NCBI RefSeq assembly: GCF_901538355.1
Contig: NZ_LR593887.1
Span: forward strand, 6,238,920-6,302,919
DNA: 64,000 bases
Direction: 5' to 3'
DNA from: Tuwongella immobilis
GTDB taxonomy: Bacteria > Planctomycetota > Planctomycetia > Gemmatales > Gemmataceae
Shown here: piece by piece, positions 4,862-31,456 of the stretch
Position numbering within the stretch: position 1 is the stretch's first letter
Layout: each line of letters starts with the position of its first letter
Made by a program: the position numbers and the translations under genes
Notes under the pieces: generated by a model
What the model was told of the DNA's origin: nothing
The model's database searches: none
Seen by the model: the letters and a program-made list of their open reading frames with translations, nothing else

Positions 4862-5734
4862 ATGCGACGGGACTTGCGAGGCCGAGTCGTTCTGGTGACA
4901 GGCAGCTCGCGAAATTTGGGGAAGCGCATCGCTCAGATGCTCGCCCAACGTGGAGCCAAACTGGTCATCACCGGCCGGGATCCCAGCTTGGTGGAGGCGA
5001 CGGCTGCTGAAATTCGCCGCGACGGTGCCGAGGTTCTTGGCATTGCCGGCGATCTGACGCAAGATGCCGACCGCATTCGACTTCGAGACGCGATTGTCGA
5101 GCGATTCGGCGGGCTAGACGTGCTCATCAACAATGCAGGCATGGCCAGTTTTGGAGAATTCGCCACCAGCAGCGAAGCCCTGATGCGTACCATTTTGGAA
5201 ATCAACTTCTTCACGCCGGTGGAGTTGATTCGCCTGTTTACCCCGTTGCTCAAAGCCTCTGCCGATCAAGGCCGGATTGATGGCCAGGGGTGGCGACCGG
5301 CGATTGTCAACATTAGCTCCATCTGCGGACGTGTGGGCATTCCTTCGTACCCCGAACATTCTTCCAGCAAGTTCGCCATCGCTGGCATGACCGAATCGCT
5401 CCACGGGGAGTACAGCCGATTCGATATTGATGTGCTGCTGATTGTTCCGGGCACGGTGAATATGCCGGATCGCATGCGGCATTATCTGCGGAACGAAGGC
5501 CGCATTTCGCTGGATCTTCGCGGCACCCCGCAAGACACGGTTGCCGAGAAGATTATTCGCGCCATCGAGCGGAATCGTCGGGAGACGTTGATTGGCGGGA
5601 TGACCAAGTTTTTGGTGCTGAGCAAGAAACTGGCACCTCGCATTCTGGAATTCTTCATGATCCGCAAGGTGCGGAATTTCGAGAAGCGGGCCAAACTCGG
5701 CGAAGGATCCGCCACCACCGCTGGAAACGAGTAG
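4862..5734 (+). CDS. short-chain dehydrogenase/reductase family protein with His replacing the catalytic Tyr
   Basis: A 290-residue classical-type SDR. The Rossmann glycine motif TGSSRNLG is near residue 14, the NNAG motif is near 91, and the catalytic-region Ser is Ser153 in NISSICG. In the canonical S-x12-YxxxK arrangement the Tyr would be residue 166, but codon 5357-5359 is CAT (His166), followed by SSSK with Lys170 intact; a Tyr163 lies three residues earlier. The protein may therefore be a modified or inactive reductase, or may use His. It is the first gene of a tight cluster: the asparagine-synthase-like gene starts 6 bases after its stop, then an ABC exporter follows. A role in making or modifying the exported molecule is an inference. 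Confidence 0.88.
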   Translation: MRRDLRGRVVLVTGSSRNLGKRIAQMLAQRGAKLVITGRDPSLVEATAAEIRRDGAEVLGIAGDLTQDADRIRLRDAIVERFGGLDVLINNAGMASFGEFATSSEALMRTILEINFFTPVELIRLFTPLLKASADQGRIDGQGWRPAIVNISSICGRVGIPSYPEHSSSKFAIAGMTESLHGEYSRFDIDVLLIVPGTVNMPDRMRHYLRNEGRISLDLRGTPQDTVAEKIIRAIERNRRETLIGGMTKFLVLSKKLAPRILEFFMIRKVRNFEKRAKLGEGSATTAGNE

Positions 5735-5740
5735 CGATTC

Positions 5741-7756
5741 ATGTGCGGCATTGCAGGAATTATTGATTTAGCTGGCCAACAGCCGATCACCATGGATCGC
5801 CTCTCGGCGATGGCGACGGCAATCATCCACCGTGGGCCCGACGAAGACGGCTTCTTCCAAGAGCCGGGGCTGGGGTTTGCCTCGCGCCGATTGAGCATCG
5901 TCGGCCTGGCCGATGGTCGCCAACCCATCACCAACGAAGATGGTTCGGTGGTGGTGGTATTCAACGGCGAATTGTTCGATTATCCCGAACAACGGGCCAT
6001 GCTGGAAGGCAAAGGCCACAAGTTCGTCACGCATACCGATACCGAATTGATTCCCCACATGTGGGAAGAATATGGCGAGCAGATGTTCGAGCATCTGCAC
6101 GGCCAATTCGCCATCTGCTTGTATGATCGCAAGCAGCGCTGCGTGATTCTGGCTCGCGATCGCATTGGCATTTGCCCGCTGTTTTACAGCATTCAACGGG
6201 GACCGGGCGGCGAAGAAAAATTCATCTTCGGCTCGGAAATCAAAGCGCTGCTCGCCTCCGGATTGGTGCCCGCCAAGGCGGATGTCGCGGGGCTGATGCA
6301 CGTGTTCACCTTCGTGGCGGCTCCTGGCCCGGCAACCGCGTTCGCCGGGGTGACCGCAATGATCCCCGGGCGGTACATCCGCATCGATTTGGATCGATCG
6401 TCCAACAAAGTCAGCGACCAACGTCCGTACTGGCAACTGAGCTTCCCCGACTGGGGAAGTGAGGAAAGCGCGAACGAATCTGAGGATCGTCTGGTTGATC
6501 GGTTTGAAGAAGTTCTGCTGGGTGCCGTATCTCGCCGTTTGCGAGCGGATGTCCCGGTTGTATCGTATCTAAGCGGCGGGGTGGATTCGTCGCTTGTCGT
6601 GGCTTTGGCGTGCAAAGTGCTTGGGCGGCCGATTCCCACCTTTACGATTGGGGTGAAGGCCAAGGGGCTCAACGAAGAAGCCGAAGCCGGGATTGTCGCC
6701 AAGCATTTGAATGCGACTCCGGTGATTGTCCCCTGCGGTGATGCCGAGGTGCGGGACACTTACCCGGAAATGATCGAAGCGGGTGAAGGTCCGGTCATCG
6801 ATACCGCCTGTGCGGCCATGGTGCTGCTGGCGAAAAGCGTGCGGGCGCATGGCTTTAAGGTAGCCCTGACCGGCGAAGGGGCCGATGAATGGCTGGCGGG
6901 GTATCCCTGGTTCAAGATCCACAAATTATTGGGATTCTTGGATGTGATTCCGGGTGTGAATATCAGCCTGGGCCTGCGACAATTGGTGCTGTCGCTGATT
7001 GGTCAGCCGAAATTTAGCAAGGATCTGCTCAAACGGGCTCGCAATGCCGTGGGTGGGCACAATGCGTGGCTCGATTTGTATGGCATGATGAGTGTTTCCA
7101 AGCTGCGATTCTTCGCGCCGGAACATCAGGCGATTGCCACCCAACGGGCATTTGTGGATGAATTGCAGGTGAATCCGGCGATTTCCCGCTGGCACCCGTT
7201 CCACCGGTCGCTCTACATGGGTGGTCGCGTGCATTTGCCCGGTTTGCTGCTGGGGCCGAAAGGGGATCGCCCGGCGTTGCATTCCTCGGTGGAAACGCGG
7301 TACCCGTTCTTGGATGAACAGGTGATCCAGTTTCTGGCGAATCTGCATCCGAAGTGGAAGTTGCCGGGCTTCCAAGACAAATATCTGCTGCGCAAACTCG
7401 CACTGCGCTGGCTGCCGAAATCGATTGCCCTGCGGAAGAAACTGATGTTCCGCGCTCCGATGGATAGCTTCCATCTGACGCCCGCCCAGGGACAAACCAA
7501 AGCGGGCTGGATCGAACAGGTTCTCAGCCGTGAATCGCTGAAGAAGACGGGCTATTTTGATGCCGATGCCGTGGCGTACTGGCGCGAAAAGCTGCCGAGC
7601 ATGCCGCGAATGCTCAAGCGGACGACCATCGAAATGGGCCTGGTGGGAGTTACCGCCACCCAATTGTGGCATCACTTGTTTATTTCCGGCGATTTGGCCG
7701 AGATTCCTTCGTGGATTCGGTCCAGTGCGGCGGGAATGGCGAATCGCGGCAGTTAG
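5741..7756 (+). CDS. asnB: asparagine synthase-like glutamine amidotransferase
   Basis: A 671-residue AsnB-family enzyme. MCGIAGII places the catalytic nucleophile at Cys2 of the N-terminal class II glutaminase domain, with HRGPDE near residue 31 and FNGELFD near 76. The C-terminal synthetase domain carries the PP-loop SGGVDSS near residue 281, which binds ATP, and TGEGADE near 380. It transfers ammonia from glutamine to an adenylated carboxylate. True asparagine synthetase is possible, but many family members amidate natural products or envelope components, and the position between an SDR and a DevCAB-like exporter favours a specialised role. The last 60 residues look complete; no damage is seen. 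Confidence 0.88.
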   Translation: MCGIAGIIDLAGQQPITMDRLSAMATAIIHRGPDEDGFFQEPGLGFASRRLSIVGLADGRQPITNEDGSVVVVFNGELFDYPEQRAMLEGKGHKFVTHTDTELIPHMWEEYGEQMFEHLHGQFAICLYDRKQRCVILARDRIGICPLFYSIQRGPGGEEKFIFGSEIKALLASGLVPAKADVAGLMHVFTFVAAPGPATAFAGVTAMIPGRYIRIDLDRSSNKVSDQRPYWQLSFPDWGSEESANESEDRLVDRFEEVLLGAVSRRLRADVPVVSYLSGGVDSSLVVALACKVLGRPIPTFTIGVKAKGLNEEAEAGIVAKHLNATPVIVPCGDAEVRDTYPEMIEAGEGPVIDTACAAMVLLAKSVRAHGFKVALTGEGADEWLAGYPWFKIHKLLGFLDVIPGVNISLGLRQLVLSLIGQPKFSKDLLKRARNAVGGHNAWLDLYGMMSVSKLRFFAPEHQAIATQRAFVDELQVNPAISRWHPFHRSLYMGGRVHLPGLLLGPKGDRPALHSSVETRYPFLDEQVIQFLANLHPKWKLPGFQDKYLLRKLALRWLPKSIALRKKLMFRAPMDSFHLTPAQGQTKAGWIEQVLSRESLKKTGYFDADAVAYWREKLPSMPRMLKRTTIEMGLVGVTATQLWHHLFISGDLAEIPSWIRSSAAGMANRGS

Positions 7757-7783
7757 TCGGGCTTGCATCGGAGATCGACCGGC

Positions 7784-8911
7784 ATGAATTACGCCTTGCA
7801 AACCCTGTGGCACGATCGGGCACGCTTCCTTCCGGGCGTGCTGGCGGTGGCGTTCTCGGCCGTGCTCATCGGCGTGCAGTGCGGACTGCTGCTCGGGTTA
7901 TTCTCGCTCACGTCGATCTCCATCGATTTATCCCCCGCGCAAATCTGGGTTGGCTCGCCCAAGATGCTCTCGGTCGATCTGGGCGACCCCATTCCGGAAA
8001 GTTTCACCGGTCGCGTTGCCAGCGAACCGGGAATCGTCCGCACCGAAATGTACTATCAGTTGTTCGCCAATTTCACCAAACCCGACGGTGGTTCCGATAA
8101 GTGCATGATTATCGGCTTCAGTTTGGAGCCCAATGCGCTCGGTGCCATGAGTGTGGTCACGGATCAGATGCGGCACGATCTCAGCGAGCCGTTCGCGATT
8201 GTCATTGATGAATCCGATTTTGATCGTCTGGGCATCAAACAGGTCGGCGACACAGCGGAAATTAACAAGCAGCGGGTGCGTGTTGTCGGGACCGTTCAGG
8301 GGGTCAAAGGGTTAGCGGCCGCCTACATTCTTTGCTCGCCGGCAACCGCCCGTGCCCTGCTGAAAGTGAACTGTCCGCCCGGAAATACCGTTTTTGTGCT
8401 TGCGGAATGCGAAAATCCGGCAGAGGCACCGGCCATTGTCGAACGCCTTCGGGAAAAATATCCGAATGATATGAGTGTGTTCGCCTCGGCAGACTTTTCC
8501 AAACATTCCCGTTTGCACTGGTTAATCAAAACCAAGGCCGGGATTGCATTGGGGTATGCCGCGTTGTTGGGGTTGCTCGTGGGGCTGGTGGTGACCAGTC
8601 AAACCCTCTACGCCGCAACCACCGCATCGGCCCGCGAGTACGCCATTTTGCTCGCCCTGGGGATTCCTCGCTGGCGGGTGTCCATGGCGGTCGTCTCGCA
8701 ATCGTTCTGGGTGGGGACAATGGGCATTTTGGTGGCAATTCCCACCATCTTTGGCATGGGGCATTTGGTGGGCGTGATTGGCATTCAAGTGCTGATGCCG
8801 CCTTGGCTTCTGGCCAGCACCATCGGCGTCACCATGGCCATGGCCAGCTTGTCCGGCCTGATGGCATTGCGGTCGGTTCGACAGATCGAGCCGAACAACC
8901 TGTTGCGGTAA
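7784..8911 (+). CDS. ABC exporter permease, FtsX/DevC-like
   Basis: A 375-residue membrane protein. One transmembrane segment lies near residues 16-38 (LPGVLAVAFSAVLIGVQCGL), then a large extracytoplasmic domain of about 210 residues, then three C-terminal spans with the FtsX-type signature around AREYAILLALGIPRWRV. This is the MacB/FtsX/DevC fold, and its length is close to cyanobacterial DevC. The frame is open 7 codons upstream, but ATG 7784 begins the typical MNYALQTL sequence. The gene follows the amidotransferase by 27 bases and precedes the cognate ATPase by 22 bases with a good AGAAGGAG ribosome site. Confidence 0.88.
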   Translation: MNYALQTLWHDRARFLPGVLAVAFSAVLIGVQCGLLLGLFSLTSISIDLSPAQIWVGSPKMLSVDLGDPIPESFTGRVASEPGIVRTEMYYQLFANFTKPDGGSDKCMIIGFSLEPNALGAMSVVTDQMRHDLSEPFAIVIDESDFDRLGIKQVGDTAEINKQRVRVVGTVQGVKGLAAAYILCSPATARALLKVNCPPGNTVFVLAECENPAEAPAIVERLREKYPNDMSVFASADFSKHSRLHWLIKTKAGIALGYAALLGLLVGLVVTSQTLYAATTASAREYAILLALGIPRWRVSMAVVSQSFWVGTMGILVAIPTIFGMGHLVGVIGIQVLMPPWLLASTIGVTMAMASLSGLMALRSVRQIEPNNLLR

Positions 8912-24634: not shown

Positions 24635-24843
24635 AATCGTTCATCCCGATGCATGCGGAAGCGGCGATTTTCGCTTGCGTCGGGGGTGGGAGTTCGTCAG
24701 AATGCGGGGGCGGTGGTAGGGTTCCGTGAAGTGCCCTGCCGGTAGCGGCTGATGGATTGATTCCGCGAGATTTCGGTGTGCCCCAGCCGGAATTGGCCGC
24801 GGACAGTCCGATGACGTCCCTGCGGGGCTGGCAGGAGCGGCCT

Positions 24844-27800
24844 GTGGCGTTCTCATGTCCGTATTGCTCCCATTCCATTTCGGTCAAAACACCGAAGCCG
24901 GGACGCTACACGCCCAAATGTCCCAAATGCGCGGGCGTCTTTCAGCTCATCATCCCCGCCGATGCGGATGCCGCCTGGCAAGTCAAGCCGCTGCCGAATG
25001 CCGGCCAACCCACTACCGCGCCAGCCGCCCCCCCGACCGCCCCATCTGGCGCGCCCGCGACTTCGGGAACGCCGACCAATCCGGGCACGACACCGGGAAT
25101 TCCAAGCAGCAAAACCGTGCTGCCGACCGCTCGACCCAACGCATCGGGGGATGCGCCGACGCTGCTGAATCAGCCGGGAGTGACCGTGCCGCCGCCCGCC
25201 CCGCCGCAATCGCATGCCAGCACGGAAGCCACGGGCAATTTCGAGCCAATCGGCGATTCTCCGCAGGCCGACCATTCCGCATCGAAATTGGTGCTGGGCA
25301 GTAAGACGGTGCCAGCGACTCAGAAAACCGTTCTGCCGACGGCCACGACTTCCCCGCCGCCCGCGGTGGAATCCACCGGGGAATTCCGCCCGGTGAGTGC
25401 CCCTGCGCCAAAACCGCTGACGCTGCCGGTGAGCAAGCCCGTGCCCGCGCCGCCGACGGATGCGACGCTGCCGAGTGCCGCCGCGATTCCGCCCGCGCCT
25501 CCATCGCACACGCTGCCGGCCAGCCAAGCCGCAGATGCACGCAGCGACGATGAACCAGCCGATGCCACACTACCACCGGACGCCGTGCCCGCGCAGCCAT
25601 CGCAAGCGGGGACCATTCGCATGGGCACCCAGGCCGGGCTGCCCGGGAAAACCCGGCTGCCAAGCGCCAAAACCAAAGTCGATGTGCCACCATCGGATGC
25701 GACACTCGCCACGGATCTTCCCGCAGCGGATGCGGATGAGCCGCAGGATTTTGCGGTCGATGAGCCGCCCCAAAAATCGCCTCCAAAGTCACCTGCCGGT
25801 TCATCTCGCAAGGCGAAATCCGCAACAGCGGCCGAGCCGGACGATTTGCCCGAAACGCTCGGCGGATACCGCATCGAGAAGGAATTGGGACGTGGCGGCA
25901 TGGGGGCTGTGTATTTGGCCCGACAACTGTCACTGGATCGCCCGGTGGCGCTGAAGGTGATGAATCCGCGCTGGGCAGCCGACGCCGTGTTCGTCGCCCG
26001 ATTCATCCGCGAAGCCTACGCCGCCGCCCAACTGGTGCATCATAATGTCGTGCAAATTTACGACATTGGCTTGGATCACGATGTGCATTTCTTCAGCATG
26101 GAATTTGTCGAAGGGCAATCGCTCTCGCAGGTCATCAAGCGCGAAGGCAAGCTCGACCCGGAATTGGCCGTCGGTTACATCCTTCAGGCGGCCCGCGGAT
26201 TGAAATTCGCCCACGATCGCGGCATGATCCACCGGGATATCAAGCCCGATAATCTGATGCTCAACACGCAGGGCATCGTGAAAGTGGCCGACCTGGGATT
26301 GGTGAAAACCCCCGCGATGCAGGCCGCCGATGATGCCCTGGGGAAGGTCACGCCGCCACCCACGGGCAGCCTCTCGGCATCGCTGGGGGCAGACATTACG
26401 AACGCGAATGTCGCCATGGGCACGCCCGCGTACATGAGTCCGGAACAGTGTCGGGACGCCGCCCAAGTCGATCATCGGGCCGATATTTATTCGCTGGGCT
26501 GCACCCTGTATGTGCTGCTTACTGGTCGCCCGCCCTTCACCGGCAGCACGGCCATTGAGGTGATGTCCAAGCACGTTCAAGAGGCGATGATTCCGCCAGA
26601 TCAAATCGTCAAATGGGTGCCCAAGGAAGTCTCGTCGCTGCTGCTGAAGATGACGGCGAAGAATCCCGCCGATCGGCACCCCAGCATGGACGCGCTGATT
26701 GCCGACCTGGAGCAATGGCTGGGCGTGCAAAGCAGCGGGCCGTTCACCCCGAAGGAAGAACACGCCAGCCTGCTGGAACAGTGCGTCAACCGCTTCCAAG
26801 ACGCCCCGCTGGCCAAGCTGCGCTCGCGGGTGATTCCGGGCTTTTTCGGCGGCAGTGCCCTGGTGGGGATCGCCAGCCTGCTGCTTGGCTACCCCAACAT
26901 CGCCCTGGGCATGGTCGGGATGCTGATTTCCGCCGTCGCCAGCTACTTTGTGCTGCAAGGCATTCGAGAAAAAACCTACCTGTTCCGTCGCGTTCGAGAA
27001 ATGATCTTCAGCAGTCCGCTGAGCGACCTGCTCGTTGGGGCCGCCGGTGGGTTGCTGTTGCTGCTGATGCTGTATTTTTCGGGGCTGTTGTGGGTCTGGT
27101 TGGGCTTTGGAATCGTCGGCGTGGGGGTCGCATTTGCGCTGCACACCACCATCGATCGCCCATTGGCCAAGCAGCGACAAGCCGCGCTCGATGATGCCGA
27201 GGCATTGTTCAAACGGCTGCGATTGCAAGGCTTGGAAGAAGACGCCCTGCGACAATTTGTCGGCAAATATTCCGGGAAACAGTGGGAAGAATTCTTCGAG
27301 GCGATGTTCGGCTTCGAGGCAAAACTGCAAACGCGGGCCATTCTCGAGCGCGTCGGCGGCGGCGCTCGCCAAGCCGAGAAACACGCCGCCTGGCGCGAGC
27401 CGTTGTTGCAGGCACTGGAAACGCTGCATCGCAAACGCCGCGAAGCTCGGGAACGAAAAATTCTGCAACAGTTGGAACAAAAAGCGCTGCTGGCCAAAGG
27501 CGTCGATTCCAAGACGGCCCAAACGCAAGCCGAAGCGGCGGCCGACTTTGTCGTCGCCCAGGCGGGAGAAATCCGGCAGATTGATGGACTCGACCCAACC
27601 GTCGTGGATGAAGCGAATCCCCAACCGACGGGCCGCCGCGTGCGCAATGTCAGCGAAATGATGCGTTCTGCCGAGAAGCCGCCCAAGAAAATGACGCGAC
27701 CGCCCGTTTCGCCGGTGCAGCGCATCACGCAAATTGCCATGAGCGGCAAACTGCGATTCCTGGTCGCCGCCGGGCTGTTGCTGGGGTGCTTTGCGTGGAT

Positions 27801-28119
27801 TCATCAGAATCTCGGCGGGACCGATGCGGCGAATCTGCTCAGCGTGCTCGATCGCACCACGCCCTGGAAACCGCTGGGATTCTTCGGGCTGTTCGATCAC
27901 GCCAATGCCGGGGTCGCCGGGCTGTGGTTGCTGGTGTCGCTGGGATTTGCAAGCTGGATTGGCCGGGGTGGGCTGATGCTGGCCGCCGCCGTCACCCTGA
28001 TTGGTCACCGATTGATCGTGCCCGCATTCGGGACCGTGCCGCCGTATTTGGTCGGAATTCTACTGGGAACTGCGATTGCGCTCGTGAGCATGGCCCTGTC
28101 GCCGCCGCCGAAACGCTGA
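24844..28119 (+). CDS. Ser/Thr protein kinase with zinc ribbon, Pro/Thr-rich linker and multi-span C-terminus
   Basis: A 1091-residue protein. A zinc ribbon (CPYC, CPKC) occupies residues 5-35 or so. A linker of about 300 residues rich in Pro, Ala and Thr carries repeated KTVLPTA, STGEFRP/ATGNFEP and DATLP motifs. The Hanks-type kinase domain at about 338-610 has the glycine loop LGRGGMGAVYLA, VALKVM, HRDIKPDN near 463 and DLGL in place of DFG. Behind it lie hydrophobic segments near 663-710 and 729-766, a charged helical region, and further spans near 970-1085. GTG 24844 is chosen because AGGAG lies at 24833-24837 and the ribbon starts at once; TTG 24757 or ATG 24811 would add residues without similarity. 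It is probably a membrane-bound signalling kinase. Confidence 0.88.
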   Translation: MAFSCPYCSHSISVKTPKPGRYTPKCPKCAGVFQLIIPADADAAWQVKPLPNAGQPTTAPAAPPTAPSGAPATSGTPTNPGTTPGIPSSKTVLPTARPNASGDAPTLLNQPGVTVPPPAPPQSHASTEATGNFEPIGDSPQADHSASKLVLGSKTVPATQKTVLPTATTSPPPAVESTGEFRPVSAPAPKPLTLPVSKPVPAPPTDATLPSAAAIPPAPPSHTLPASQAADARSDDEPADATLPPDAVPAQPSQAGTIRMGTQAGLPGKTRLPSAKTKVDVPPSDATLATDLPAADADEPQDFAVDEPPQKSPPKSPAGSSRKAKSATAAEPDDLPETLGGYRIEKELGRGGMGAVYLARQLSLDRPVALKVMNPRWAADAVFVARFIREAYAAAQLVHHNVVQIYDIGLDHDVHFFSMEFVEGQSLSQVIKREGKLDPELAVGYILQAARGLKFAHDRGMIHRDIKPDNLMLNTQGIVKVADLGLVKTPAMQAADDALGKVTPPPTGSLSASLGADITNANVAMGTPAYMSPEQCRDAAQVDHRADIYSLGCTLYVLLTGRPPFTGSTAIEVMSKHVQEAMIPPDQIVKWVPKEVSSLLLKMTAKNPADRHPSMDALIADLEQWLGVQSSGPFTPKEEHASLLEQCVNRFQDAPLAKLRSRVIPGFFGGSALVGIASLLLGYPNIALGMVGMLISAVASYFVLQGIREKTYLFRRVREMIFSSPLSDLLVGAAGGLLLLLMLYFSGLLWVWLGFGIVGVGVAFALHTTIDRPLAKQRQAALDDAEALFKRLRLQGLEEDALRQFVGKYSGKQWEEFFEAMFGFEAKLQTRAILERVGGGARQAEKHAAWREPLLQALETLHRKRREARERKILQQLEQKALLAKGVDSKTAQTQAEAAADFVVAQAGEIRQIDGLDPTVVDEANPQPTGRRVRNVSEMMRSAEKPPKKMTRPPVSPVQRITQIAMSGKLRFLVAAGLLLGCFAWIHQNLGGTDAANLLSVLDRTTPWKPLGFFGLFDHANAGVAGLWLLVSLGFASWIGRGGLMLAAAVTLIGHRLIVPAFGTVPPYLVGILLGTAIALVSMALSPPPKR

Positions 28120-28245
28120 TCGCCGCCGCAAAACGCTGAAACGGTTGATTCTCGAAGCTGCCGCGAGTTTCTACCATAACTCCTACGCCTCGCATCGGGC
28201 TGATTCCGGGCTGGCGGGTGGATGACCTTGCTGGAGAGATTCGTG

Positions 28246-29466
28246 ATGGATAACCGATCAATCGCCCGCTCCCTGATGGCGGGGAGCCTGTTGCTTCTGA
28301 TGGTGGGACTATCGTGGAGCCAACCCGCCGAAGTGCCCACCCAACCGGCATTTCTGCGCGTCAAACTCCCCGCCGATGCCAAACTCGAATTCGATGGCGT
28401 CGTCACGAAAACGACCGGCGAAATCCGCCGCTTTCAATCGCCACCATTGGCCACCGGCAAAAAATATCTGTACGACCTGAAATGGACGTACACCGAAAAG
28501 GGTCAGGCCATCACCAAGACCCGCACCGTGACCATCGTTCCGGGCAGCGAAGTCGAAATCGACCTGCTGGTCGAAGAAGCGAAGCCGGAACCAAAAGATC
28601 CGCCCAAGGCCGAACCGAAGCCCGCCCCGAAAGTCGAGCCAAAGACCGAACCAAAAGCGGAACCCAAGCCGGAAATGAAGGCCGAGCCGAAGCCCGCTCC
28701 AAAGGTCGAACCAAAGACCGAACCCAAAGCGGAACCCAAAGCGGAACCAAAGCCCGCCCCAAAGGTGGAGCCGAAGACCGAACCAAAGGCGGAACCCAAG
28801 CCGGAAATGAAGGCTGAGCCGAAGACCGCGCCAAAGGTCGAACCAAAGACCGAACCCAAAGCGGAACCAAAGCCTGCTCCCAAAGTGGAGCCGAAGACGG
28901 AACCGAAAGTTGAACCGAAAGCGGAACCCAAGGCCGAGCCAAAGCCCGCGCCCAAGGCAACAGGCAACGATGCGGAAGAAACCACCAAGGTGCCGTATGT
29001 GCCGACGCCGCAAGTGGTTGTGGAAGCGATGCTCAAGATGGCGGATGTCAAGGCCGGGGATACCGTGTTTGATCTGGGCTGTGGCGATGGCCGAATTGTC
29101 ATCACGGCGGTGAAGCAATTCCAAGCCAAGCGTGGCGTGGGAATTGATCTCGATCCGGATCGGATTTTGGACTCGAAATTGAACGCGAAGAAGGCGAATG
29201 TGGTCGATCGCGTCGATTTTCGGGAAGGCGATGTGCTGAAGCTCAAAGACTTATCGGAAGCCTCGGTGGTGACGCTGTATTTGCTGCCAGAAGTGAATTT
29301 GAAGCTTAAGCCGGTGTTACTTTCGACGCTGAAGCCCGGTTCGCGGATTGTCTCGCACGATTTCGATATGGGCGACTGGAAGCCCGAAAAAACGCTGGAT
29401 CTGCAAGACGAACGCGGCGATGAGCATACGATTTATCTGTGGACGGTTCCCGCCGCCAAGAATTGA
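28246..29466 (+). CDS. exported TIGR03000-type domain / PKAEPK-repeat / SAM-methyltransferase fusion
   Basis: A 406-residue protein. A signal peptide (SLMAGSLLLLMVGLSWSQ) covers residues 8-27. A TIGR03000-like extracytoplasmic domain follows at about 32-105 (KLPADAKLEFDGVVTKTTGE), then about 130 residues of Lys-Pro-Glu repeats at 112-240, then a class I methyltransferase domain at 250-406 with motif I FDLGCGDGR near 275 and the acidic motif II GIDLDPDR. The methyltransferase resembles small bacterial RrmJ/FAM173-like enzymes with a TLYLLPEVN motif. An exported SAM enzyme is unexpected because SAM is cytoplasmic. ATG 28246 has GGAGAG at 28233-28238; an upstream ATG at 28222 would still keep the signal peptide. 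Confidence 0.82.
   Translation: MDNRSIARSLMAGSLLLLMVGLSWSQPAEVPTQPAFLRVKLPADAKLEFDGVVTKTTGEIRRFQSPPLATGKKYLYDLKWTYTEKGQAITKTRTVTIVPGSEVEIDLLVEEAKPEPKDPPKAEPKPAPKVEPKTEPKAEPKPEMKAEPKPAPKVEPKTEPKAEPKAEPKPAPKVEPKTEPKAEPKPEMKAEPKTAPKVEPKTEPKAEPKPAPKVEPKTEPKVEPKAEPKAEPKPAPKATGNDAEETTKVPYVPTPQVVVEAMLKMADVKAGDTVFDLGCGDGRIVITAVKQFQAKRGVGIDLDPDRILDSKLNAKKANVVDRVDFREGDVLKLKDLSEASVVTLYLLPEVNLKLKPVLLSTLKPGSRIVSHDFDMGDWKPEKTLDLQDERGDEHTIYLWTVPAAKN
28580..28965. repeat. in-frame tandem repeat encoding PKAEPK/PKVEPKTEPK units
   Basis: Degenerate units of 12-30 bases built from codons for Pro, Lys, Ala/Val/Thr and Glu recur through this interval, including near-identical longer blocks (PAPKVEPKTEPKAEPKPEMK appears at least twice). 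The repeats stay in frame and form the linker of the methyltransferase fusion, so they are coding repeats, not a CRISPR array. Confidence 0.85.
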
Positions 29467-29505
29467 CGATCCCCGCCGATTTTCCTGCCCGAATGGAGGT
29501 GCCGC

Positions 29506-31104
29506 ATGGCCAAACGATACGATGCCATTATCATTGGTGCCGGTCACAATGGTTTGGTCACGGCGGCGTATCTCGCTCGGGCGGGCTATCGCGTGTTGGT
29601 GCTGGAACGCCGCGAGGTGCTGGGCGGCTGTGCCGTCACGGAAGAAGTTTGGCCCGGATACCGTGTCTCCACCGCCGCTTACGTCAACAGCCTGTTTCGC
29701 CCGGAAATCATCCGCGATCTGGAACTCAAGCGATTCGGCTTCCAGATGCTCCCCCGCAATCCCTCATCATTCACCCCGTTTCCCGACGGTCGATATTTGA
29801 TGATGGGACCGGATGCCGAACTGAATCGCCGCGAAGTTGGCAAATTCTCGGCCCGCGACGCCGAACGATTGCCCGAATACGAAGCGATGCTCACCCGCGT
29901 TGCCGACTTCCTCGAACCGCTGCTCGTCGAAACGCCGCCCGATCCCTGGTCATTCCGGCCCGGCGACTGGTGGAAACTCGGCAAAATCGGCTATCGCTTC
30001 CTGAAATTGGGTCGCCGCGACGCCGTCAAGGCCATCGAGATTCTCACGGGAGCCGCTCGGCCCATCCTTGATCGCTGGTTTGAATCCGAACAATTGAAGG
30101 TTACGCTGGCCACCGATGCCGTCATTGGCGTGATGGCCTCCCCCAGCATGCCTGGCACCGCGTATGTGCTGTTTCACCATGTCATGGGCGAATGCGATGG
30201 CGCTCGTGGCGTGTGGGGCTACGTCCGTGGTGGCATGGGGTCGCTCAGCAACGCCATTGCCGATTCCGCACGACGATTTGGCGCGGAAATCGTCACCAAC
30301 GCCGAAGTCGAGCGCATTCTCATCCGCGAAGGACGAGTCGAAGGGGTGGCACTGCGCAACGGCAACGAGTATCTCGCGCCGCGAGTCGCATCCGGGGTCG
30401 ATGCCAATCTCACCTTCCGCAAATTCTGCGATGCCAAGGAGCTACCACCCGAATTCCTCGCAGCGGTATCCGAAATCGATTACACCTCGGCCACGCTGAA
30501 AATCAACGTCTGCCTGAACGAAGTGCCCAACTTTATCGCCCTGCCCAACAGCGGAGCCGCCCACATTCCCGGCCCGCAGCATCGCGGCACCATGCACATC
30601 TGCCCGACGATGGACTACCTGGAACGGGCCTACGACGATGCGAAATATGGCCGCCCCTCGCAATCGCCGATTCTGGAATGCACCATGGCCACCACAGTGG
30701 ACGATTCGCTGGCCCCGCCCGGCAAACATCTCATGTCCATGTTCGTGCAGTATGCCCCGTATCACTTGCGAGAGGGGAATTGGGACGATATCAAAGAATC
30801 GTTCGCGGATCGCTGCTTTGACATTCTCAACGAATATGCCCCGAATTTCAAGCAATCCGTGATCGCCCGGCAGATTCTCACCCCAGTGGATCTCGAACGC
30901 ATCTACGGCTTAACCGGCGGCAATATCTTCCAAGGGTCGATGTCGCTCTCGAGCATGTTTTCGCTGCGTCCGGTGGCGGGATTCTGTCAATACCGCACGC
31001 CGATTGCCGGGCTATACCTGTGCGGGGCCGCCGCGCATCCCGGCGGGGGCGTACTCGGAGCCGCCGGTTGGAACGCCGCCCGCGAAATCCTCCGCGATCG
31101 CTGA
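29506..31104 (+). CDS. FAD-dependent oxidoreductase, phytoene desaturase/PYROXD2-like
   Basis: A 532-residue flavoprotein. The N-terminal dinucleotide-binding motif is IIIGAGHNGLVTAAYLARAGY at about residues 8-28, followed by LERREVLGGCAVTEE, the second FAD contact. The C-terminus has LYLCGAAAHPGGGVLGAAGWNAAREIL, typical of the PYROXD2/CrtI-like branch of the amine oxidase superfamily. These enzymes desaturate or isomerise polyene or other hydrophobic substrates; the substrate here is unknown. There is no carotenoid gene beside it. A GGAGG-type ribosome site lies just before ATG 29506. Confidence 0.87.
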   Translation: MAKRYDAIIIGAGHNGLVTAAYLARAGYRVLVLERREVLGGCAVTEEVWPGYRVSTAAYVNSLFRPEIIRDLELKRFGFQMLPRNPSSFTPFPDGRYLMMGPDAELNRREVGKFSARDAERLPEYEAMLTRVADFLEPLLVETPPDPWSFRPGDWWKLGKIGYRFLKLGRRDAVKAIEILTGAARPILDRWFESEQLKVTLATDAVIGVMASPSMPGTAYVLFHHVMGECDGARGVWGYVRGGMGSLSNAIADSARRFGAEIVTNAEVERILIREGRVEGVALRNGNEYLAPRVASGVDANLTFRKFCDAKELPPEFLAAVSEIDYTSATLKINVCLNEVPNFIALPNSGAAHIPGPQHRGTMHICPTMDYLERAYDDAKYGRPSQSPILECTMATTVDDSLAPPGKHLMSMFVQYAPYHLREGNWDDIKESFADRCFDILNEYAPNFKQSVIARQILTPVDLERIYGLTGGNIFQGSMSLSSMFSLRPVAGFCQYRTPIAGLYLCGAAAHPGGGVLGAAGWNAAREILRDR

Positions 31105-31172
31105 ACGGCCAAATACCGAGACAATCGCACAACCAACGATCAATCGGCCTAGCATTTGCCGATTCCGATTGA

Positions 31173-31178
31173 TACAAT
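31173..31178 (+). promoter_or_regulatory. candidate -10 element for the tRNA gene
   Basis: TACAAT lies 9 bases before the mature tRNA 5' end. No clear -35 is seen at the proper distance, so this is only suggestive. Confidence 0.3.
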
Positions 31179-31187
31179 GACGGTATT

Positions 31188-31260
31188 GCCCTCGTAGCTC
31201 AGGGGATAGAGCACCGGTTTCCTAAACTGGGGGTCACAGGTTCGATTCCTGTCGAGGGTA
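31188..31260 (+). tRNA. tRNA-Arg (anticodon CCT)
   Basis: A 73-base cloverleaf. The acceptor stem GCCCTCG (31188-31194) pairs with CGAGGGT (31253-31259) with a terminal G-T, and A31260 is the discriminator. The D arm is GCTC/GAGC, and the anticodon stem CCGGT/ACTGG encloses loop TTCCTAA with anticodon CCT, which reads AGG. The T arm is ACAGG TTCGATT CCTGT. CCA is not encoded. The gene stands alone between the PYROXD2-like gene and a small membrane protein gene. It is not disrupted and no integrase is near, although tRNA genes are common integration sites. Confidence 0.95.
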
Positions 31261-31456
31261 TTTCATCCACCATCGTCCCATTTCATCACCCCCATCAAAT
31301 CGTGAAGCCCCTGCGACGGTCGGATTCCGATTCCTCGTGTGGCAATCCATAAAAATCATCACATTTGTGGGAACCGCCATTCATCCCATGGCGATGTCGA
31401 TGCTACACTCTCCCGATGGGCGATTTCGCAAGGCAAAACGGCATCGGGGTGGAATC

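Follow-up and report, generated by a model that had tools for sequence, protein, structure and literature searches.

Architecture of the gene

The window, by which we mean the whole stretch of 64,000 nucleotides that was analysed, carries on its forward strand a gene whose frame runs uninterrupted from the ATG at 28246 to the stop codon ending at 29466 and encodes a protein of 406 aa. The gene, its parts and its two neighbours are as follows.

24757-28119, + strand: serine/threonine kinase-like gene with a zinc-ribbon N-terminus, the upstream neighbour (kinase identity by eye)
28233-28238, + strand: Shine-Dalgarno-like box GGAGAG, 7 nt 5' of ATG 28246 (read by eye)
28246-29466, + strand: exported methyltransferase gene, 406 aa (open reading frame and translation)
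28246-28320, + strand: signal peptide, residues 1-25, sequence MDNRSIARSLMAGSLLLLMVGLSWSQ (our own heuristic)
28345-28566, + strand: TIGR03000 domain, residues 34-107 (profile match and AlphaFold2 pLDDT of about 95)
28570-28980, + strand: Lys-Pro-Glu spacer, residues 109-245, predicted to be disordered (composition, DNA repeat, AlphaFold2)
28987-29454, + strand: class I SAM methyltransferase domain, aKMT4 type, residues 248-403 (Pfam, NCBIfam, PDB matches, fold)
29071-29094, + strand: SAM motif DLGCGDGR, residues 276-283 (translation and family alignment)
29506-31104, + strand: CrtO/PYROXD2-like flavin oxidoreductase gene, without a signal peptide, 39 bp downstream of the methyltransferase gene

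The original prediction had placed a signal peptide, a TIGR03000 domain, a Lys-Pro-Glu repeat and an intact SAM motif in one reading frame. Our analysis confirms this architecture, the methyltransferase being of class I, and the repeat spacer measures 137 aa. The TIGR03000 region reaches 65.8 bits, over the family's cut-off of 43.1, and thus belongs to that family. The spacer is 71.5% K+P+E, and its coding DNA is a tandem array. In the AlphaFold2 model, made with 42 aligned proteins, pLDDT is about 95 for TIGR03000, about 50-60 for the spacer and about 97 for the methyltransferase domain; the low value of the spacer is what would be expected of a disordered linker. The extended motif FDLGCGDGR occupies residues 275-283. 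Cleavage of the signal is likely between SWS and Q, judged by eye, and the top candidate of our script lies 2 residues earlier. The longest open reading frame starts at 28222, 24 nt before ATG 28246, and that version retains the signal peptide too. An antisense ORF (28309-29124, minus strand, 271 aa) lies over the K-P-E repeat and most likely reflects the way in which codons recur there. In 27900-31400, a scan for promoters and terminators gave 2 promoter-like sites (1.3 expected) and 7 terminator-like sites (3.9 expected, sd 2.1), 5 of the latter on the minus strand.

A methyltransferase domain of the aKMT4 class

The methyltransferase domain matches Pfam Methyltransf_31 (2.7e-11), and its best NCBIfam model is NF041081, an archaeal protein-lysine N-methyltransferase (1.2e-45), at 155 bits, below that model's equivalog cut-off of 200 bits; against both copies in this genome the model scores 158 and 139 bits. 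Among PDB sequences the domain matches 5bxy (4.5e-51), aKMT4 5fa8 (5.8e-42) and 5jwj (8.6e-41), and the best fold matches of the predicted structure are 5bxy (with SAH), 5fad (SAH) and 5fa8 (SAM), with target TM-scores of 0.92-0.93. The nearest solved structure is thus 5bxy of Salinibacter ruber, 56% identical at a target TM-score of 0.92, which is called an "RNA methyltransferase" in its depositors' title only. The aKMT4 of Sulfolobus islandicus (5fa8, 5fad, 5jwj; NF041081) has the same methyltransferase domain, with 44-46% identity in fold alignments and the same SAM motif. In the PDB, aKMT4 is a 161-residue chain that lacks a signal, and its described substrates are intracellular; the window protein has a signal, TIGR03000 and a spacer in addition. 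By sequence and predicted fold, the domain is of the aKMT4 protein-lysine methyltransferase class, and lysine would be its substrate.

The SAM site is strictly kept: D276, G280, D281 and G299 are invariant in 124/124 distinct exported domains, and position 301 is acidic (D or E) throughout. The structures 5fa8 and 5bxy carry the same invariant residues, with E at 301. Counting along the PDB sequence alignment, G280 of the window protein, kept in all 124 domains, corresponds to G38 of aKMT4; passages of PMC4639711 report that aKMT4 methylates several proteins and itself and that its G38R mutant is inactive. The conservation of the site argues against a decayed domain, although it falls short of proving methyl transfer outside the inner membrane. 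A reading without methyl transfer would have the exported fold serve as a sensor or scavenger that binds a nucleoside or some other ligand. Some exported folds have been repurposed, and we know of no SAM source or SAM pool outside the inner membrane; nevertheless, the four invariant residues match those of SAM-bound aKMT, and the structure of 5bxy, 56% identical by fold alignment, contains SAH. We regard such repurposing as improbable.

Export signals and topology

Export signals were called with our own script rather than SignalP, as a positive n-region, a hydrophobic core and a cleavage or lipobox motif. By this heuristic the window protein has the cleavable N-terminal signal with a positive n-region that marks Sec export, and a signal is called in 130/133 non-redundant relatives with a usable start, a set that leaves out near-duplicate domains as well as ORFs cut by the 5' edge of their locus and ORFs that have no start codon ahead of the domain. 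The 3 misses are an apparently frame-shifted piece in L109, together with L139 and L152, both signal-peptide-like by eye. As controls, the script called 1/24 oxidoreductase ORFs from the same loci and 1/6 other class I methyltransferases of the same genome; these were used since PrmA (TIGR00406), a cytosolic methyltransferase control, matched 0/95 Gemmataceae genomes at 1e-20, as against 9/14 control genomes. The puzzle raised in the original prediction, a SAM-binding domain behind an export signal, is real.

One proposed way out of this puzzle was that the signal is an uncleaved membrane anchor which leaves the methyltransferase on the cytoplasmic side; FAM173, turned towards the mitochondrial matrix, would be the parallel. 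FAM173A/B (ANT-KMT, ATPSc-KMT) are mitochondrial proteins with a putative N-terminal membrane segment before the methyltransferase domain, FAM173B being a distant aKMT homologue and FAM173A its paralogue, as passages of PMC9006661 describe them; we liken them to the window protein by description only. The hydrophobic run in the relatives, with a median of 16 residues and an upper decile of 20, also speaks for an anchor. However, the mean net charge is +2.2 before the hydrophobic core and -0.1 after it, with the side before the core the more positive in 116/130 and the reverse in 2/130, and cleavage-like motifs recur, along with 5 lipobox signals and 13 with an RR-type motif, some of them classical Tat. 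The TIGR03000 domain, which we take to be extracytoplasmic, likewise counts against an inward-facing enzyme. FAM173A/B further differ from the window protein in that, according to the same passages of PMC9006661, import leaves them unprocessed and the loop of ANT that they methylate faces the matrix. We consider an anchor with the enzyme inside very improbable.

Tat-like signals were seen in the betaproteobacterial members L106, L109, L126, L132 and L138 (e.g. RRTFIKL in L106; RRxFLAGL). Such signals would export the domain folded, possibly with its cofactor bound.

The domain is predicted to lie outside the inner membrane in ordinary double-membrane bacteria as well. The same exported enzyme occurs in Bacteroidota, Acidobacteriota, Pseudomonadota, Myxococcota and Cyanobacteriota, so that an appeal to the planctomycete periplasm or invaginated space, a second suggested solution, is unneeded, and planctomycete cell architecture is not the explanation.

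Spread of the exported methyltransferase

A second protein of the same genome has a signal peptide, TIGR03000 and a methyltransferase domain 62% identical to that of the window protein, without the K-P-E spacer. Among Gemmataceae, 69/95 genomes have a methyltransferase match at 1e-25, a single genome having as many as 7 matching domains, and across Planctomycetota 16/393 genomes do, ten of these 16 in Gemmataceae. From a scan of public genomes we retained the best 80 of 572 relatives (the 80 public loci), which come from Planctomycetota, Acidobacteriota, Bacteroidota, Pseudomonadota, Myxococcota, Cyanobacteriota, Armatimonadota, Sumerlaeota, Binatota and a doubtful Campylobacterota bin. The exported enzyme spans about nine phyla; weaker, non-exported members may exist beyond the best 80 of 572.

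This spread bears on the two conditions that the original prediction named as refuting it: that the fusion is an assembly artefact, or that translation starts after the signal and yields a cytoplasmic enzyme. The K-P-E repeat could in principle cause misassembly, but the artefact explanation fails, as the paralogue shows the same domain order while lacking the repeat, and the fusion recurs in other genomes: in an alignment of 42 proteins that we chose, with 25 rows picked for a long N-terminus, TIGR03000 is present in 26/42 and NF041081 matches 42/42. As for a late start, the Shine-Dalgarno-like box lies before the signal, and the export signals of the 130/133 relatives also count against it and make it unlikely. 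Artefact or late start, taken together as an explanation, seems to us extremely improbable.

Several members have tandem domains: L163 (G033:C45, about 5092-7917) has five copies in one exported protein, and L154, L156, L157, L158 and L172 have two each. The match in L056 (G024:C1:631637-632110) contains one in-frame TGA. In a methyltransferase tree made by a quick method, with 51/123 inner branches weak, the window domain falls in a Gemmataceae-dominated fork of 26 rows (SH-aLRT 84), 20/26 of them oxidoreductase-linked. On this tree the permease label described below requires 13 changes, with gain and loss indistinguishable. The methyltransferases of L080 (contig labelled Bacteroidales) and L116 (Arcobacter) group with those of Gemmataceae and Acidobacteriota; both contigs are probably mis-binned.

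A LAT-type permease beside the methyltransferase in relatives

In 28/80 loci (best 80 of 572 relatives) a permease lies on the same strand within 1 kb of the methyltransferase gene, upstream in 26/28, and among the Bacteroidota loci of these best 80 the adjacent permease is present in 13/14. Elsewhere in 602 kb, at the same threshold, there are 2 other permease ORFs, both just downstream of a methyltransferase on the other strand. On plasmids, the methyltransferase adjoins an annotated amino-acid permease in 3/4 loci, and the 4/4 plasmid records with a permease of at least 45% identity also carry an adjacent methyltransferase; a fifth record, 34% identical, is unannotated. Among Gemmataceae the permease is found in 27/95 genomes at 1e-60 and stands beside the methyltransferase in at least 10, with coordinates compared by eye.

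The adjacent permeases match LAT/xCT-type structures best and share the GGWN motif with LAT1 of the LAT-type (SLC7) transporters. The one permease scanned against NCBIfam, from Leptolyngbya, is closest to TIGR00911 at 210 bits, below the cut-off of 701.8. On the evidence of these matches, the adjacent permease is of the LAT class, in the same superfamily as TIGR00911 and in a separate subgroup. At the TM6 position of LAT1 Tyr, 35/35 aligned rows of adjacent permeases (33 distinct) have an acidic residue, Glu or, in two rows, Asp; three unlinked permeases have Asn there. The acidic residue suggests a cationic amino-acid-like cargo such as lysine, methyl-lysine or SAM.

In three loci (L093, L100 and L134, the last running off its contig), a LIV-type ABC amino-acid importer follows the methyltransferase in place of the permease, as identified by Pfam and NCBIfam on L100 and by Pfam on the L093 binding protein. 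Since these loci are close relatives, this is probably one event.

The window genome has a sole, distant permease (34% identity), which is unlinked, and gives no match to the Gemmataceae version, so the permease role would be dispensable there or done otherwise.

The flavin oxidoreductase and other neighbours

The flavin oxidoreductase encoded downstream of the methyltransferase has CrtO as its best NCBIfam model, at 304.6 bits against a cut-off of 1000, and it is 47% identical over 545 columns to what we take to be the human PYROXD2 sequence, so that its kinship to PYROXD2 is tentative. An oxidoreductase lies within 3.3 kb of the methyltransferase in 13/80 loci (best 80 of 572), six of the 13 also having the permease; 45/80 of these loci have neither. 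Oxidoreductase-linked loci beyond Planctomycetota include Burkholderiales/Betaproteobacteria and one "Deltaproteobacteria" bin, where the gene is on the opposite strand. In L093 the oxidoreductases are on the opposite strand.

In Gemmataceae the oxidoreductase is single-copy in 71/95 genomes at 1e-100 and, by eye, beside the methyltransferase in at least 19/71. Hand-compiled presence lists (methyltransferase at 1e-25, oxidoreductase at 1e-100) give both in 59 of the 95 genomes, the methyltransferase only in 10, the oxidoreductase only in 12 and neither in 14, a co-occurrence with a Fisher p of 3e-4 by a statistic that ignores kinship. In G032, the permease and oxidoreductase are close together, with no methyltransferase match at 1e-25.

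In L067, a piece resembling the upstream kinase (by eye) precedes permease, methyltransferase and oxidoreductase in that order. Judging by this gene order, a permease gene may have dropped out of a kinase-permease-methyltransferase-oxidoreductase arrangement in the window. Other recurring neighbours (LeuC/LeuD, malonyl-CoA decarboxylase, TANGO2) were set aside as ordinary synteny of close relatives.

A proposed methylation, uptake and oxidation module

Based on these findings, we propose that the window protein is an exported lysine methyltransferase of the aKMT4/FAM173 class working in a module of methylation, uptake and oxidation, a reading to which we give a probability of about 0.5. Sec would carry the protein over the inner membrane, probably with cleavage of the signal. 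The catalytic domain would be kept in the envelope by TIGR03000 and the flexible K-P-E spacer, and there it would most likely methylate lysines of extracytoplasmic proteins. The exported methyltransferase would be joined in the module by the LAT-type permease with its acidic TM6 residue and by the PYROXD2-like, cytosolic-looking flavin oxidoreductase, with the LIV-type ABC importer replacing the permease in one lineage. The permease would transport a cationic, amino-acid-like compound connected with the reaction: either methyl-lysine inward, or SAM in exchange for SAH. In the variant that we favour, methyl-lysine would be recovered by the permease or importer, and the oxidoreductase would then take the methyl groups off it in the cytoplasm. 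We favour it because it puts the three genes on one substrate line and fits both the acidic residue and the importer. Several observations count against the module: neither partner is near the gene in 45/80 loci (best 80 of 572), the window genome is without the linked permease, the domain scores below the NF041081 cut-off, the kinship of the oxidoreductase to PYROXD2 is tentative, and the L093 oxidoreductases are on the opposite strand.

The permease could instead supply the methyl donor to the exported enzyme, exchanging cytosolic SAM for SAH over the inner membrane, while the oxidoreductase serves another step. Exchange is the usual transport mode of LAT-class permeases, which are amino-acid transporters, and the amino-acid end and positive charge of SAM could suit the acidic TM6 residue. 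This scheme also solves the donor problem better than methyl-lysine recovery does, and the permease found next to the gene in relatives is a candidate for SAM supply outside the membrane, the third solution offered in the original prediction. In Candida, a SAM transporter belongs to the amino-acid permease family, according to PMC5177730, which makes SAM/SAH exchange plausible. It leaves the oxidoreductase unexplained, however; the LIV-type importer after the methyltransferase in one lineage points to uptake; and the adjacent permease is absent from the window genome and from 52/80 loci (best 80 of 572). We therefore think SAM/SAH exchange rather unlikely and prefer methyl-lysine recovery.

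For the oxidoreductase step of methyl-lysine recovery, human PYROXD2 is of interest. According to passages of PMC9730628, the strongest association in one plasma study was that of PYROXD2 variants with methyl-lysines. PMC8777681 describes PYROXD2 as a protein of the mitochondrial inner membrane or matrix and as the product of a human disease gene about whose exact role little is known; passages of that paper do not mention methyllysine. Taking the bacterial and mitochondrial proteins together, we raise as tentative and somewhat doubtful the idea of a dedicated bacterial system for extracytoplasmic SAM-dependent methylation, in which a lysine methyltransferase of the aKMT class would be exported, a LAT-type permease would be specialised for SAM/SAH or methyl-lysine and a PYROXD2-like oxidoreductase would recycle the methylated product, and of which mitochondrial FAM173 and PYROXD2 would be relics or counterparts.

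Significance

The window protein, with its TIGR03000 domain and spacer, belongs to an exported branch of a known methyltransferase class. What is new beyond the original prediction is its aKMT4-class identity and the permease and oxidoreductase gene context. In the open-licence PMC literature, we found no description of a periplasmic methyltransferase, nor of the exported branch with its transporter-oxidoreductase context. Among the listed papers on 10 of 7,064 matches for planctomycetes or TIGR03000, the domain did not come up, which says little about its absence. Similar-phrase matches in that literature, judged by the titles and abstract starts of those listed, dealt with M. tuberculosis, with host chromatin during infection, or with clubroot or other protists that infect plants, none with periplasmic methylation; matches on bacterial methyllysine catabolism, amine oxidase and transporter were unrelated by their titles and the starts of their abstracts.

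SAM-dependent enzymes are assumed to act where SAM is made. With export signal and SAM motif both conserved over about nine phyla, either that assumption fails or the fold acts otherwise outside, and either alternative could be put to the test on a domain that is small and soluble and has relatives of solved structure. A candidate transporter and a candidate enzyme for handling the product are suggested by the neighbouring genes, and the module may give independent genomic support for a role of PYROXD2 in methyl-lysine metabolism.
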